This document shows, piece by piece, positions 7,068 to 15,085 of a stretch of 33,066 bases of DNA. A model generated the notes under the pieces. The model was not told the DNA's origin. It searched no databases and was given only the letters and a program-made list of their open reading frames with translations. The stretch is from Armatimonadota bacterium (GTDB lineage: Bacteria; Sysuimicrobiota; Sysuimicrobiia; Sysuimicrobiales; Kaftiobacteriaceae), in assembly GCA_031081675.1 (NCBI GenBank), contig JAVHLZ010000002.1, positions 1 to 33,066 on the forward strand. Direction: 5' to 3'. A program made the translations under genes and the position numbers. The stretch's first letter is position 1. Every line of letters begins with the position of its first letter.

Positions 7068-9695
7068 TCACGACGCCGCCGCCGCCACGGGCTCCCGCAC
7101 CGTGATCTGCAGCCCGCCGTCGGCGTAGTCCACCACGGCCGTCTGGCCAGCGCGCAGCTGGCTGGCCAGGACCAGGCGGGCCAGAGGGTTCTCCACCTCG
7201 CGCTGGATCACCCGGCGCAGCGGCCGCGCGCCGAAGTCGGGGTTGTAGCCCTCCCGGGCCAGGTAGTCGCGGGCCGCGTCGGTGACCTCCAGGGTGATGT
7301 GCTGGTCCCGCAGCCGGGCGGCCAGGTCGCGCAGCTGCAGGTCCACGATCTGCCGGATGTGCTCGCTGGTCAGCGGCCGGAAGACCAGAACCTCGTCCAC
7401 GCGGTTGAGGAACTCGGGGCGGAAGGTCCGCCGCACCTCGTCCAGGACCTGCACCCGGGCCATCTCGAACTGGGCCGCGTCGGCCGGGTTCAGATGCTGC
7501 AGGTACCGGCTGCCCAGGTTGCTGGTCATGATGATCACGGTGTTCTTGAAGTCCACCGTCCGCCCGTGGCCATCGGTCAGCCGCCCGTCGTCCAGGATCT
7601 GCAGGAGCAGGTTGAACACATCGGTGTGGGCCTTCTCCATCTCGTCGAACAGCACCACCCGGTACGGCCGCCGCCGCACCGCCTCGGTGAGCTGGCCGCC
7701 CTCCTCGTACCCCACGTATCCCGGGGGCGCCCCGATGAGCCGGCTGACGGTGTGCCGCTCCTGGTACTCGGACATGTCCAGGCGGATCAGGGCGTCCTCG
7801 TCGTCGAACAGCTGAGCCGCCAGGGCCCGCGCCAGCTCCGTCTTGCCGACGCCGGTGGGCCCCAGGAAGAGGAACGACCCGATGGGCCGTCGGGGGTCTT
7901 TGAGGCCGGCGCGGGCGCGGCGGATGGCGTCGCTGACGGCGCGCACCGCCTCGTCCTGGTCCACGATCCTCTCGTGCAGCCGCTGCTCCATCTCCAGGAG
8001 CTTGCGCATCTCCCCCTCCAGCAGCCGGGTGACGGGAATGCCGGTCCACCGGCTCACCACCTCGGCCACGTCCTCGGCGCCCACCTCCTCCTTCAGCAGC
8101 CGCTGGGCGGTCGGGATCTGGGCCAGGGCCGCCTCCTGGGCCGCCAGCTGGCGCTGCAGTTCGGGCAGCACGCCATAGCGCAGGCGGGCGGCGGTTTCCA
8201 GGTCGGCCCGCCGCTCGGCGTCCTCGATCTGGTGCCGGGTCTGCTCGATCTGCTCCTTGATCTGCCGCACCGCGGCGATGAGCTTCTTTTCCTGCTCCCA
8301 CTGTTGGCGCAGGCCGTCGCTGCGCTCCCGCAGGCCGGCGATCTCCCGCTCCAGCTGTTCCACCCGCTGCCGGCTGGCCGGGTCGTCCTCCCGGCGCAGG
8401 GCCTCGCGCTCGATCTCCAGCTGCATGATCCGCCGGTCGATCTCGTCCAGTTCGGTGGGCTTGCTGTCGATCTCCATCCGCAGGCGCGCGGCGGCCTCGT
8501 CGATGAGGTCGATGGCCTTGTCGGGCAGGAAGCGGCCGCTGATGTAGCGGTCCGACAGGGTGGCGGCGGCGATGACGGCGGCATCGGTGATGCGCACGCC
8601 GTGGTGGACCTCGTAGCGCTCCTTCAGCCCCCGCAGGATGGAGATGGTCTCCTCCACCGAGGGCTCGCCGACGTACACCGGCTGGAAGCGGCGCTCCAGC
8701 GCCGCGTCCTTCTCGATGTGGGTGCGGTACTCGTCCAGGGTGGTGGCGCCGATGGTCCGCAGCTCGCCGCGGGCCAGCATGGGCTTGAGCATGTTGGAGG
8801 CGTCGATGGCGCCCTCGGCCGCCCCGGCCCCCACCACCGTGTGCAGCTCGTCGATGAACAGGATGATCTGGCCCTGACTGTCGCTGACCTCGCGCAGCAC
8901 GGCCTTCAGGCGCTCCTCAAACTCTCCCCGGTACCTGGCTCCCGCCACCAGGGCCCCCATGTCCAGCTGCACGACGCGCTTGTTCTTCAGGCCCTCGGGC
9001 ACGTCGCCGCGGACAATGCGCTGGGCCAGCCCCTCCACGATGGCCGTCTTGCCCACGCCCGGATCGCCGATGAGCACGGGGTTGTTCTTGGTGCGACGCG
9101 ACAGGACGTGGATGACCCGCCGGATCTCGTCGTCGCGGCCGATGACCGGGTCGAGCTTGCCCGCCGCCGCCAGCGCCGTGAGGTCCCGGCCGTAACGCTC
9201 CAGGGCCTGATAGGTGCCCTCGGGGTGAGGGGTGGTCACCCGCGCCCGGCCCCGGATCTCCTGCACGGCCCGGTACAGGCCGCCCAGGCTCACGCCGGCC
9301 TCCTCCAGGAGCCGCGCGGCGCCGCCGTCCCGCACCCGGGCCAGGCCCAGCAGCAGGTGCTCGGTGCTCACGTAGTCGTCCCGCATGCGGGTGGCCTCGT
9401 CCTGGGCCACCTCCAGGGCCTGGCGCAGCCGCGGGCTGATGAGCAGGCCTTCGGCCGGCGGGCCGCTGACCCGGGGCTGGCGCTCCAGTTCGGCGCGCAG
9501 GCGCCCGCGCAGGGCCGCCACGTTCACGCCGGCCCGGGCCAGGACCTGGGGGACGATCCCGTCGGCCTGCTCCACCAGGGCCAGCAGCAGGTGCTCGGTG
9601 TCCATCTGCGGGTGCTGGTGGGTGCGCCAGATCTCCTGGGCGCTCAGCACGGCTTCCTGCGCCTTCTCGGTGAACCGGTCAAACCGCACGGCCAT
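7068..9695 (-). CDS. clpB: ATP-dependent disaggregase ClpB
   Basis: ClpB is the Hsp100 hexameric disaggregase that, with DnaK/DnaJ/GrpE, threads aggregated protein through its pore. The 875-residue product has the Clp N domain (residues 1-145, two repeats each with TEHLLL), NBD1 with Walker A GDPGVGKT at 210-217 and Walker B ILFIDELH, a coiled-coil middle domain (about 400-525) that separates ClpB from ClpA/ClpC, and NBD2 with [14 protein letters not shown] and [11 protein letters not shown]. The ATG at 9695 is favoured over the GTG at 9701 because GGGAGG lies 7 bases before the ATG but only 1 base before the GTG. It follows dnaJ by 15 bases and belongs to the hspR-led unit. Confidence 0.97.
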
Positions 9696-9710
9696 GGCCA
9701 CCCCTCCCGC

Positions 9711-10667
9711 CTAGCGGCACCCCATCGCCGCTCGCGGGTTGTCCCGGCGCAGCCGGGCCAGCTCCTCGTACAGCTGTCGCTCCCGCGGCGTGAGGTCCGT
9801 CGGCAGCACCACCTTCACCCGCACCAGCTGGTCGCCACGCCCGCCCTCGCGGCGGGGCATACCCAGGCCGCGCAGGCGGAACGTCTGCCCGTTCTGGGTG
9901 CCCGGCGGCAGGACCATCTCCACCTTGCCGTCCAGGGTGGGGACCTCGATGCGGGCGCCCAGGACCGCCTCCGACGGCGTCACGGGCACCTCGACCAGGA
10001 TGTGATCATCCTGACGCACGAACAGCGGGTGGGACTGGACCTGCACCACCAGGTACACATCCTGCCCGTCCAGCGCCCCGGGGAGCCGGATCCGCTGGCC
10101 GTCCCGCACCCCGGGCGGGATGGAGACATCGAACCGGCGCGAGGTGCCATTCAGGTGCACCACCACCGACTTGCGGGTGCCGGCGAACGCCTCCTCCAGG
10201 GTGATGGACACGGCCGCGGTGGGCTCCGCTGGCGCGGCGGCACCCTCCTGCACGCCGACCCGCCGGCGGCCGGGCCTGCCCGGCCGCCGGGACCCCAGGA
10301 AGTCGGCGCCGAAGAACCGCGCGAAAAAGTCGGAGAAGCCCATCCCGGCCAGCAGGTCCTCCAGGTCCAGGCCCTCCCCGAAGGTGACCGTCCAGCCGCC
10401 GGGAGCGCCCGGCGCGCCGAACAGCTGCTGCCAGTCCACTCCCCCGCGGCGGTAGGCGTCGTACATCTGGTCGTAGCGGGCGCGCCGTTCGGGATCGCCC
10501 AGCACCTGGTAGGCCTCGTTGATCTCCTTGAACTTCTCCTCGGCCTCCCGGGTCTTGTTGATGTCGGGGTGGTACCGGCGGGCCAGGCGGCGGAAGGCGG
10601 CCGCGATGGTCTTCTGATCGGCGTGGCGATCCACGCCCAGGATCTGGTAGTAGTCCTTGAACTCCAT
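9711..10667 (-). CDS. DnaJ/CbpA-type Hsp40 co-chaperone without zinc finger
   Basis: A type II (class B) Hsp40 that stimulates DnaK ATPase and delivers substrates. The 318-residue product has a J domain opening MEFKDYYQILGV with the HPD motif at residues 33-35, a Gly/Phe-rich linker, and the two-barrel C-terminal substrate domain (VSITLEEAFAGTRKSV, IPPGVRDGQRIRLPG, RGLGMPRREG). None of the four CxxCxGxG zinc motifs of classical DnaJ occurs. I chose the ATG at 10667 because it gives the standard J-domain start; a GTG at 10676 is in frame. It starts 20 bases after grpE and is the only DnaJ in the operon, so it likely serves as the main DnaK partner. Confidence 0.93.
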   Translation of the reverse strand: MEFKDYYQILGVDRHADQKTIAAAFRRLARRYHPDINKTREAEEKFKEINEAYQVLGDPERRARYDQMYDAYRRGGVDWQQLFGAPGAPGGWTVTFGEGLDLEDLLAGMGFSDFFARFFGADFLGSRRPGRPGRRRVGVQEGAAAPAEPTAAVSITLEEAFAGTRKSVVVHLNGTSRRFDVSIPPGVRDGQRIRLPGALDGQDVYLVVQVQSHPLFVRQDDHILVEVPVTPSEAVLGARIEVPTLDGKVEMVLPPGTQNGQTFRLRGLGMPRREGGRGDQLVRVKVVLPTDLTPRERQLYEELARLRRDNPRAAMGCR

Positions 10668-10687
10668 CCCCGCCACCGCCTCCGCCG

Positions 10688-11266
10688 TCAGCTCCCGGCC
10701 ACCCGGACCCGCGCCGGCCGCAGCACCTCACCGTTCAGCAGGTAGCCCCGCTGCACTTCCTCCACCACGGTGCCGGGAGCCACACCGTGCTTGTCGGGCG
10801 ACACCACATCCACCGCCTCGTGGTAGCGCGGATCGAAGGGCTGCCCCCGGGCGTCCATCGGCCGGACCCCCATGTTGGCCAGCAGGTCCAGGACCTGCCG
10901 GTGGGCCAGCCGGATGCCCTCCAGGATCGCCGCCCCGTCGCTGCCGGCGTGGTCCAGCGCCCGCTCGAGAGTGTCCACCACGGCCAGGATCACCGCCAGC
11001 ATCGCGTGCCGGGTCCGCTGGATGGCATCCTCCCGCTGGCGCGCGGCCTGCTTCTTGTAGTTTTCCAGGTCGGCCGCCGCGTGCAGGAACTGCTGCCAGT
11101 TACGCTCCGCCTCCAGCCGCAGCCGGTCGACCTCCGCGCGCAGTTCGGCGATCAGCTCCTCCGGCGTGCGGGTCTCGGCCGGAGCGGAGGAGGGGACCAC
11201 ACCCTCGCCGGAGGTTCCCTCCGCACTCCCGGCACCCGGACCGGCCTGCTGCCGCGTCTCCTCCAT
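10688..11266 (-). CDS. grpE: Nucleotide exchange factor GrpE
   Basis: GrpE releases ADP from DnaK. The 192-residue product has a disordered acidic N-terminus, a long helix (about 35-95) with AEVDRLRLEAERNWQQFL and DLENYKKQAARQRE, and a C-terminal beta domain with FDPRYHEAVDVV and VVEEVQRGYLLNGEVLRPARVRV, the GrpE signature. The ATG at 11266 is preceded by GGGGAG. It lies between dnaK (15-base gap) and the Hsp40 gene, the usual dnaK-grpE-dnaJ order. Confidence 0.96.
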   Translation of the reverse strand: MEETRQQAGPGAGSAEGTSGEGVVPSSAPAETRTPEELIAELRAEVDRLRLEAERNWQQFLHAAADLENYKKQAARQREDAIQRTRHAMLAVILAVVDTLERALDHAGSDGAAILEGIRLAHRQVLDLLANMGVRPMDARGQPFDPRYHEAVDVVSPDKHGVAPGTVVEEVQRGYLLNGEVLRPARVRVAGS

Positions 11267-11281
11267 GACTCTCCCCAGGCC

Positions 11282-13186
11282 TCAGCGGTCGTCCGCCTTC
11301 TTGTAGTCGGCGTCGATCACGTCCTCGCCCGGCTTCCCGGTGGGGCCGTCCGGCCCCGGCCGCCCCGCCCCGCCGCTGGCCGCCGCCCGGGCGTACATGG
11401 CCTCGGTGAGCTTGAAGCTGGCCTGCTGCAGGTCCTCGATGGCCTTGCGGATGCGGGCCACATCGTCGGTGGCCAGGGCGTCCTTGAGGTCCTTCAGCCG
11501 GGCCTCCACCTGCTGCCGCTCGGCAGCGGAGATCTTGTCGCCCACCTCCCGGAGCATGCGCTCGGTCTGGTAGACGAGGGAGTCGCCCCGGTTGCGGGTC
11601 TCGGCGATCTCCCGCTTGCGGCGGTCCTCGTCGGCGTACCGCTCGGCCTCCTTGATCATCCGCTCCACCTCCTCCCGGGAGAGGGTGGAGGTGCCGGTGA
11701 TCTTGATGGACTGCTCCCGCCCGGTGGCCGTGTCCTTGGCGGTGACGCTGAGGATGCCGTTGGCATCGATGTCAAAGGTCACCTCGATCTTGGGCACGCC
11801 TCGGGGGGCGGGGGGAATCCCGTCCAGGATGAAGCGCCCCAGGGTGCGGTTGTCCCGGGCCATGGGGCGCTCGCCCTGCAGCACGTGGATCTCCACCTGG
11901 GTCTGGCCGTCGGCGGCGGTGGTGAAGATCTCGCTCTTGCGGGTGGGGATGGTGGTGTTGCGGGGGATGAGCACGGTCATCACCCCGCCCAGGGTCTCCA
12001 CGCCCAGGGACAGGGGCGTGACATCCAGCAGGACCACCTCCCGCACCGTCCCGGCCAGCACGCCCGCCTGGATGGCGGCCCCCACCGCCACCACCTCGTC
12101 GGGGTGGACCTCCTTGTTGGGCTCCTTGCCCGTCAGCCGCCGCACCAGCTCCTGGATCATGGGCATGCGGGTGGAACCGCCCACCAGGATGACCTCGTCC
12201 AGGTCCTTCTCGGTCATCTTGGCGTCGGCCAGGGCCTGCTTGAACGGGCCGATGCACCGCTCCACCAGGTCGGCCGTCAGCTCCTCAAACTTGGCGCGGG
12301 TCAGCACGTAGTCCAGGTGCTTGGGCCCGGTGGCGTCGGCGGTGATGAACGGCAGGTTGATGGTGGTCTGGGTGACCGTGGACAGCTCGATCTTGGCCCG
12401 CTCGGCGGCCTCCCGCAGCCGCTGGAGGGCCTGGCGGTCCTGGCGCAGGTCGATGCCGTGCTCGCGCTTGAACTGGTCCGCCAGCCAGTTGACGATCCGC
12501 TCGTCCCAGTCGTCCCCGCCCAGGTGGGTGTCCCCCGAGGTGGCCTTGACCTCGAACACCCCCTCCCCGATCTCCAGGATGGAGACGTCGAACGTCCCCC
12601 CGCCCAGGTCGAAGACCAGGACGGTCTCGGCGCCCTTTTTGTCCAGGCCGTAGGCCAGGCAGGACGCGGTCGGCTCGTTGATGATGCGCAGGACCTTCAG
12701 GCCGGCGATCTCGCCCGCGTGCTTGGTCGCGGTGCGCTGGGCATCGTTGAAGTACGCCGGCACCGTGATGACCGCCTCGGTGATGGTGTCCCCCAGGTAG
12801 GCCTCGGCGTCGGCCTTGAGCTTCTGCAGGATCATGGCGGAGATCTCTTCGGGGGTGAAGGTCCTGCCGGCCGCGGGCAGGTGGACCACCGCCATCCCGT
12901 TGGGCCCCTCCTCCACCTTGTAGGGGACCATCTTGCGCTCGGTCTCCACCTCCGAGTAGCGGCGGCCCATGAAGCGCTTGATGGAGTACACGGTGTTCTC
13001 GGGGTTGAGGATGGCCTGGCGCTTGGCCATCTGGCCCACCAGCCGCTCGCCGGTCTTGGTGAACGCCACCACCGACGGCGTGAGCCGGCTGCCCTCGGCG
13101 TTGGGAATCACCTGCGGCTCGCCGCCGATCACGCAGGCGATCACCGAGTTGGTCGTCCCCAGGTCAATACCCACCACCTTGCCCAT
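11282..13186 (-). CDS. dnaK: Chaperone protein DnaK (Hsp70)
   Basis: ATP-dependent Hsp70 foldase. The 634-residue product opens [17 protein letters not shown] (phosphate 1 motif) and contains [19 protein letters not shown] (phosphate 2), [14 protein letters not shown] (adenosine motif), the substrate-domain start [16 protein letters not shown], an alpha-helical lid, and a C-terminal tail ending with [13 protein letters not shown], close to the EEVD-like bacterial ending. I set the start at the ATG 13186, which has GGAGGGG a few bases upstream and gives the family N-terminus, and dropped eight in-frame residues before it. It lies 41 bases after hsp20. Confidence 0.98.
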
Positions 13187-13227
13187 GGCTGCCCCTCCTG
13201 TCGGCGCCACCCTCCTCCTCGGGCTGG

Positions 13228-13668
13228 CTACTCCACCACTTCCACCTTGACCGCGCGGGGCCGCGCCCGCTCGCTCTTGGGCACCCGGATCTCCAGGATG
13301 CCGTTGCGGTAGGAGGCACGGGCCTTGTCGCCCTGCACCTCTGCGGGCAGGGGAAGGGTGCGCAGGAAGGAGCCGTAGCGCAGCTCCCGCCGGTAGTAGT
13401 TGCGCCCCCGCTCCTCCTGCTCGGCCCGCGCTTCACCCTTGATGGTCAGGGTGTCCTCGGTCACGGTGACGTCCACGTTCTTGGGATCCACCCCCGGCAG
13501 CTCGGCCCGCACCACCACCTCGGTGTCGGTCTCGTACACCTCCACCGCCGGCTGCCACGCGCTCACCGGCGCCCGCGGGCGACGGCTGAAGAACTCCTCG
13601 AACAGCTTGTCCATGGACTCCCGCAGCGACGCCAGGTCGTCGAAGGGGTCCCACCGGATCAGGCTCAT
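13228..13668 (-). CDS. Hsp20/alpha-crystallin small heat shock protein
   Basis: ATP-independent holdase that keeps unfolding proteins soluble for DnaK/ClpB. The 146-residue product has an N-terminal [27 protein letters not shown] typical of bacterial class A Hsp20 (split here: [12 protein letters not shown] then [13 protein letters not shown]), the alpha-crystallin domain (about 40-135) with [15 protein letters not shown] and the closing GILEIRVPK, which corresponds to the GxLxIxVPK signature, and a short charged tail. The ATG at 13668 overlaps the hspR stop (ATGA), and repeated GGAGG motifs precede it within the hspR end. The overlap implies translational coupling to hspR. Confidence 0.96.
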
Positions 13669-13991
13669 GGCAGTCGCCTCCTCCTCCACGCGCGTTCCAC
13701 CACCCAGGAGATGGCGTCCCGGGTCCGCCGGTAGTCCATCCGCTCGGACATCTCCAGCAGCAGGCGCACCCCGGCCAGATTCAGGCCCACCTCCCGGGTC
13801 AGGTAGCGGATCACCCGCACCCGCTCCAGGTCCCGCTCCGAGTACAGGCGCTGGTGGTTGCGCCGCGCCGGCTGCAGGAGCCCTTTCTCCTCGTAGATGC
13901 GCAGCGTCCGCGGGTGCAGGCCCGTCAGGTCGGCCGCCACGCTGATGACATACACCGGGATGTCGTCGCGCCGTCCTCGCACCCGGGCCAT
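13665..13991 (-). CDS. hspR: HspR-type MerR family heat-shock repressor
   Basis: HspR represses chaperone operons by binding HAIR repeats and, in Streptomyces, uses DnaK as co-repressor. The 108-residue product has a MerR winged-helix domain: VYVISVAADLTGLHPRTLRI (helix-turn-helix), YEEKGLLQPAR, then RLYSERDLERVRVIRYL and GLNLAGVRLLLEM. VISVAA and GLHP with INLAGI-like GLNLAG are hallmarks of HspR as opposed to metal-sensing MerR proteins; no metal-binding cysteines occur. Its stop overlaps the hsp20 ATG. Just upstream lies a HAIR-type operator, so autoregulation is expected. In actinobacteria hspR usually closes the dnaK operon; here it opens it. Confidence 0.93.
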   Translation of the reverse strand: MARVRGRRDDIPVYVISVAADLTGLHPRTLRIYEEKGLLQPARRNHQRLYSERDLERVRVIRYLTREVGLNLAGVRLLLEMSERMDYRRTRDAISWVVERAWRRRRLP

Positions 13992-14003: not shown

Positions 14004-14032
14004 ACCGTACTGCCTGGAAACATCTTTGTCAA
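14004..14032 (-). promoter_or_regulatory. hspR: hspR operon promoter, overlapped by operator
   Basis: The minus strand shows a perfect -35 TTGACA (14032-14027), a 17-base spacer and TACGGT (14009-14004) as a weak -10. Transcription would begin only about 6 bases before the hspR ATG, so the leader is very short or the true -10 differs. The -35 hexamer is part of the inverted repeat described for HspR, so repressor binding would block polymerase. Confidence 0.5.
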
Positions 14033-14057
14033 GATCCTTGACAATGGCATTGTCAAG
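14026..14057. promoter_or_regulatory. HAIR-type HspR operator with an extra half-site
   Basis: Positions 14037-14057 read CTTGACA-N7-TGTCAAG, matching the HAIR layout (CTTGAGT-N7-ACTCAAG in Streptomyces) with two consensus differences per arm; arms are perfect over 10 bp around one central base. A third half-site, TTGTCAAG at 14026-14033, forms a second perfect 8-bp repeat with CTTGACAA at 14037-14044, spacer ATC. The element lies between divergent hspR and trxB and covers TTGACA hexamers on both strands. Confidence 0.85.
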
Positions 14058-14167
14058 GTATCTCGCCGCCAGGAAGCCCGCCGGCCGCCGCCGAAAGCAC
14101 CCACCGCGCCGGCCCCGCGGAATGGCGCCGCCGGGCGCCGGCGTTCTCCCGCACAGGTGAGGTGTCT

Positions 14168-15085
<918 letters not shown>

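Follow-up and report, generated by a model that had tools for sequence, protein, structure and literature searches.

The genes hspR and trxB lie back to back in a Sysuimicrobiota genome, and the DNA between them carries three copies of CTTGACA/TGTCAAG, which raises the question of whether one HspR operator serves both genes or each has a switch of its own. The window, that is, the whole stretch of DNA analysed here, spans 33,066 nucleotides. A first-pass annotation of it had proposed that HspR represses both the chaperone unit and trxB through these repeats. Comparative analysis established, at the sequence level, the architecture of the operator, its conservation, its tie to hspR rather than trxB, and a SigR-type promoter together with a sigma/anti-sigma pair of the corresponding kind. 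The region probably comprises two stress modules placed back to back rather than a single operator that serves both genes: the synteny of two adjoining stress genes may hint at a shared switch, whereas conservation points to separate ones.

Organization of the hspR-trxB region

The minus strand of the region carries, in order, hspR, hsp20, dnaK, grpE, a dnaJ/CbpA-type gene and clpB. On the plus strand, trxB runs divergently from hspR, followed by trxA, which is convergent with trxB. The genes are as follows.

13665..13991, minus strand: hspR, MerR-family repressor; start codon ATG 13991 or, judged from relatives, GTG 13982
13228..13689, minus strand: hsp20, hspR operon
11282..13210, minus strand: dnaK, hspR operon
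10688..11266, minus strand: grpE, hspR operon
9711..10676, minus strand: dnaJ/CbpA-type co-chaperone, hspR operon
7068..9701, minus strand: clpB, final gene of the hspR operon
14168..15085, plus strand: trxB, thioredoxin reductase (TIGR01292, 403 bits; cut-off 343)

The start region of the relatives suggests that hspR may begin at the GTG rather than at the ATG, and its leader is predicted to be very short (window 13980-13991). The nearest named relatives are genomes recovered from metagenomes and belong to the CSP1-3 lineage, a phylum now named Sysuimicrobiota (PMC11604079). A phylum-wide search gave 43 genomes, identical to those from the order-level search. The set of 30 hspR loci consists of the window's own and 29 from relatives, with readable upstream DNA in 29.

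The hspR product matches the MerR-type helix-turn-helix model PF13411 (67.9 bits; cut-off 21.6), and its gene sits in a dnaK chaperone operon. HspR models are its two best matches, despite a score below the NCBIfam HspR equivalog cut-off (NF047375, 88.5 bits versus 105). Because this protein and the sigma factor described below both fall short of the NCBIfam cut-offs, they are named HspR-type and SigR-like, respectively.

A tandem HAIR-like operator

The three half-sites, TGTCAAG at 14027-14033, CTTGACA at 14037-14043 and TGTCAAG at 14051-14057, form two overlapping perfect inverted repeats, exactly as the first-pass annotation had described: a 21-bp repeat of 7-N7-7 geometry at 14037-14057 and a 7-N3-7 everted repeat at 14027-14043. 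TTGACA is found on both strands of this region. A pair of 21-bp operators in tandem, spaced 24 bp from each other, explains both the three half-sites and the everted repeat; one operator of the pair has a worn outer arm.

14037..14057, minus strand: HAIR-like operator site A, CTTGACA-N7-TGTCAAG, perfect (CTTGACAatgccatTGTCAAG); predicted high-affinity HspR site
14013..14033, minus strand: HAIR-like operator site B, CTTGACAaagatgtTTCCAGG, with an intact inner arm and a decayed outer one; overlaps the hspR -35

The centres of the two sites are 24 bp apart, with 3 bp between the sites, and site B has three mismatches to the 21-bp CTTGACA-N7-TGTCAAG pattern. In the whole genome of 2.29 Mb the exact pattern has a single match, compared to ~0.0007 matches expected from base composition. 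A search of the window's genome for the canonical HAIR (CTTGAGT-N7-ACTCAAG), allowing up to two mismatches, gave no match. Like a HAIR, the operator has a 21-bp 7-N7-7 inverted repeat placed before hspR/dnaK, and it recurs at further chaperone genes in relatives (L050, L052 and L057); as the canonical arm CTTGAGT is replaced by CTTGACA, it is termed HAIR-like.

The everted repeat at 14027-14043, being perfect in the window, might itself be a functional site for another dimer geometry or another MerR protein. We consider this highly unlikely, since such a repeat is the automatic product of two operators 24 bp apart, and both 21-bp sites are visible, intact or nearly so, in several relatives (L009, L011, L012 and L014). 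The other MerR proteins of the genome were also rejected as binders; their recognition helices differ and no HAIR lies upstream of their genes. One such MerR-family paralogue (L175, 2902-3273 in G000:C4) lies immediately after a sigma-70-like gene and ahead of small open reading frames, and the same sigma-MerR pair occurs in genome G004 (L177).

The operator follows hspR across the phylum

The search for CTTGACA-N7-TGTCAAG in this genome and its relatives, suggested by the first-pass annotation, revealed the pair with its 24-bp spacing upstream of hspR in 29/29 readable Sysuimicrobiota loci, so that the proposed HAIR geometry with a CTTGACA arm holds well beyond the window. The paired arms score 18-25 of 28 positions at these loci, against a best paired score of 17 among 1,160 first-order shuffles. 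In whole-genome searches the tandem pattern matched 24 of the 43 genomes, and the reversed control pattern none. The operator is present both at the 15 loci with a divergent trxB and at the 14 without one. All matches to the tandem pattern precede hspR save three, each beside a stand-alone hsp20 (L057 in G012, L052 in G015 and L050 in G042), suggesting that in some families the HspR regulon also takes in genes outside the hspR operon. The hspR operon of G012 contains no hsp20, so the tandem site there goes with the relocated chaperone gene. As the pair is kept with or without trxB and also stands before hsp20, the best reading of the repeats is an HspR operator whose arm, CTTGACA instead of CTTGAGT, is specific to the phylum.

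Compared to the HspR/HAIR system of Streptomyces, the Sysuimicrobiota system shares a dnaK operon that includes the gene of a MerR-type repressor, several 21-bp 7-N7-7 repeats per promoter and a CTTGA core common to both arms. The two differ in arm ending (GT in Streptomyces, CA here) and in copy number, where Streptomyces has three copies of CTTGAGT-N7-ACTCAAG before dnaK and the present operator has two at a fixed 24-bp spacing. In addition, hspR heads the operon in the Sysuimicrobiota window. The proteins also differ: the recognition helix is HPRTLRIYEEK in Sysuimicrobiota HspRs and HPQTLRQYDRL in actinobacterial ones, and the Sysuimicrobiota wing is shorter by one residue. These differences fit the changed arm and may underlie it; an arm change that accompanies helix and wing changes lends itself naturally to testing how HspR recognizes its DNA. 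As a positive control, the canonical HAIR was found at actinobacterial loci with related HspRs. The HspR loci of Chloroflexi, Nitrospirota and others (L100-L107) gave no convincing CTTGACA or canonical site, and a literature search returned no match pairing HspR with CTTGACA. The present site thus offers a clear candidate HspR operator sequence for Sysuimicrobiota.

The hspR promoter overlaps site B

Reading toward hspR, the order of elements is site A, 3 bp, site B, its TTGACA, 17 bp, TACGGT and the hspR start. The TTGACA and TACGGT were assigned as the hspR promoter.

14027..14032, minus strand: hspR promoter -35, TTGACA, within site B
14004..14009, minus strand: hspR promoter -10, TACGGT, 17-bp spacer

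TTGACA is found at this position in 27/29 loci, and a TAnnnT follows it by 17-18 bp in 24/29, including all nine of the window's family. Measured against the strict consensus, this -10 is a weak one, and a strict sigma-70 scan did not report it; its assignment is due to its conservation among the loci.

Since TTGACA matches the -35 consensus of sigma-70, and site B does act as a -35, the repeats could in principle be mainly chance-duplicated -35 hexamers with no repressor role. Against this, neither site A nor the TGTCAAG arms are promoter elements, yet both are conserved; the 24-bp spacing is kept from family to family and beside stand-alone hsp20 genes; and shuffled DNA never attains the observed scores. 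We regard chance duplication as extremely improbable. The earlier proposal that TTGACA serves as a -35 on both strands survives on the hspR side only. Across the loci, no conserved -10 follows the copy that faces trxB, and a sigma-70 trxB promoter inside the operator was rejected after a promoter scan also found none.

A probable SigR-type promoter of trxB

Upstream of trxB lies a motif of a different kind.

14119..14145, plus strand: trxB promoter of SigR/SigH type, GGAAT-N19-GTT, conserved; -35 at 14119-14123, -10 at 14143-14145

The motif ends 22 bp before the ATG at 14168, and its -35 lies ~60 bp beyond the operator. It has the GGAAT/C and GTT elements of the SigR/SigH consensus GGAAT/C...GTT at matching spacing and is found upstream of redox genes; trxB is a SigH/SigR target in characterized systems (PMC4803200, PMC3489674). 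A genome search for promoters of this type gave 12 matches, compared to 2 for the control. Among trxB genes adjoining hspR, 9/15 have GGAAT-N18/19-GTT (0.05 expected), including 8/9 in the window's family, where the ninth (G004) reads GTA at the GTT position. For trxB genes apart from hspR, GGAA[T/G]-N17-19-GTT is present in 14/15 (0.10 expected), with GGAAG in place of GGAAT in family f7. A HAIR was found upstream of 0/15 of these genes, with best scores of 7-9 of 14, the level of shuffled DNA. As trxB away from hspR keeps the SigR-type motif and never a HAIR, the two elements appear to be separate, and trxB most likely has its own disulfide-stress promoter.

The SigR-type motif is missing close to the start codon in five hspR-adjacent trxB genes, all of family f5 (genera g9 and g13, and genome G029). 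Genes of this kind include those at L130 and L131 (g9) and at L123 and L126 (g13). The g13 genes have TTGCCT-N17-TACGCT instead, which suggests a change of promoter type.

These data bear on the shared operator of the first-pass annotation, through which HspR would repress both the chaperone operon and trxB and so couple heat shock to disulfide stress. Such an operator would sit well between the divergent genes, as it does in 15/15 adjacent loci, and g9 and g13 have an hspR-adjacent trxB devoid of the SigR-type motif. HspR of Helicobacter pylori, moreover, binds two heat-shock promoters and represses from far upstream (PMC6102357), so that distance alone cannot clear trxB. On the other side stand the absence of a HAIR from all 15 trxB genes away from hspR, the persistence of the operator with hspR at the 14 loci where no divergent trxB exists, the TTGACA facing trxB with its lack of a conserved -10, and the conserved SigR-type promoter of trxB itself; the one paper on HspR regulons that a literature search on both subjects brought up treats HspR/HAIR and thioredoxin reductase apart. 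A shared operator is thus unlikely. The chaperone half of the earlier claim stands, with an HspR-type operator conserved at hspR and overlapping its -35, and the trxB half lacks support. The proposed link between heat shock and disulfide stress through common HspR control is not upheld, because trxB keeps its own promoter and the operator follows hspR.

HspR may still modulate trxB weakly, and narrower forms of its influence on trxB can be considered. Given the far-upstream action of the H. pylori protein and the two f5 genera whose trxB lacks the motif, HspR could affect trxB in some lineages, which we judge improbable. It is likewise doubtful, if slightly less so, that HspR also tunes the SigR-type trxB promoter wherever hspR adjoins trxB; if true, the region would act as one switch for heat and disulfide stress together, in a phylum poorly represented in culture.

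A SigR-like sigma factor with an RsrA-family anti-sigma

A gene for an ECF sigma factor of SigR-like type (L068, G000:C1:34607-35161, minus strand) is present in the genome, with GGAAT-N18-GTT upstream. The sigma factor scores below the SigH_actino cut-off (TIGR02947, 202 bits versus 251.6). The protein encoded downstream belongs to the RsrA family (TIGR03988, 73.6 bits; cut-off 62.5) and carries the HxxxCxxC motif of a zinc anti-sigma. The sigma factor, the anti-sigma and the upstream motif occur across Sysuimicrobiota, and the trxB-type motif precedes 18/20 such sigma genes.

This organization resembles SigR-RsrA of Streptomyces coelicolor and SigH-RshA of Mycobacterium tuberculosis and Corynebacterium glutamicum: an ECF sigma gene followed by a zinc anti-sigma gene, GGAAT-N18/19-GTT promoters, a motif before the sigma gene itself, and trxB as a target, here a putative one. 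Those systems are actinobacterial, whereas the Sysuimicrobiota host is not and its sigma factor falls under the TIGR02947 cut-off. A 2020 survey placed the matching anti-sigma group, AS12, in Actinobacteria only (PMC7406223); the sequences described here indicate a thiol-stress circuit of SigR-RsrA type outside that phylum.

A model of two adjacent stress modules

Altogether, it is very likely that the tandem HspR operator governs the hspR chaperone operon and that trxB is read separately from its own SigR-type promoter. We infer the following scheme. HspR, whose gene heads the hspR-hsp20-dnaK-grpE-dnaJ-clpB operon, would bind the perfect site A as a dimer and from there aid a second dimer onto the degenerate, weaker site B. 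As site B overlaps the -35, HspR bound there would cover it, keep RNA polymerase off and block hspR-dnaK transcription. Heat or misfolded protein would lift this repression. In Streptomyces, DnaK is the co-repressor of HspR and is drawn away by misfolded protein; DnaK may act in the same way here and be titrated by misfolded protein. On the other side of the region, disulfide stress would oxidise the RsrA-type anti-sigma, freeing the SigR-like sigma factor to switch on trxB.

A comparable division of sites is known from Campylobacter jejuni, where HspR has a high-affinity HAIR and weaker flanking HAIRs (PMC7464140). Both systems combine one well-conserved HAIR with poorly conserved ones, of low affinity in C. 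jejuni; they differ in operon make-up and arm sequence, and the cooperativity in the present system is one that we infer.

Other stress-response sites in the genome

Further GGAAT-N18/19-GTT sites lie in G000 at C13:42461 (L172), C21:14144 (L173) and C21:33496 (L085), followed, as judged by eye, by genes for an HtrA-type protease, an RpoD-like sigma factor and a thioredoxin-like protein, respectively; they plausibly belong to a SigR-type regulon. A search for CIRCE-type repeats, for which the reversed control gave none, found sites in G000 at C6:32461, C23:16129 and C9:1745, with 0, 1 and 2 mismatches. Given these sites, HrcA probably runs another part of the heat-shock response, as a branch that coexists with HspR.
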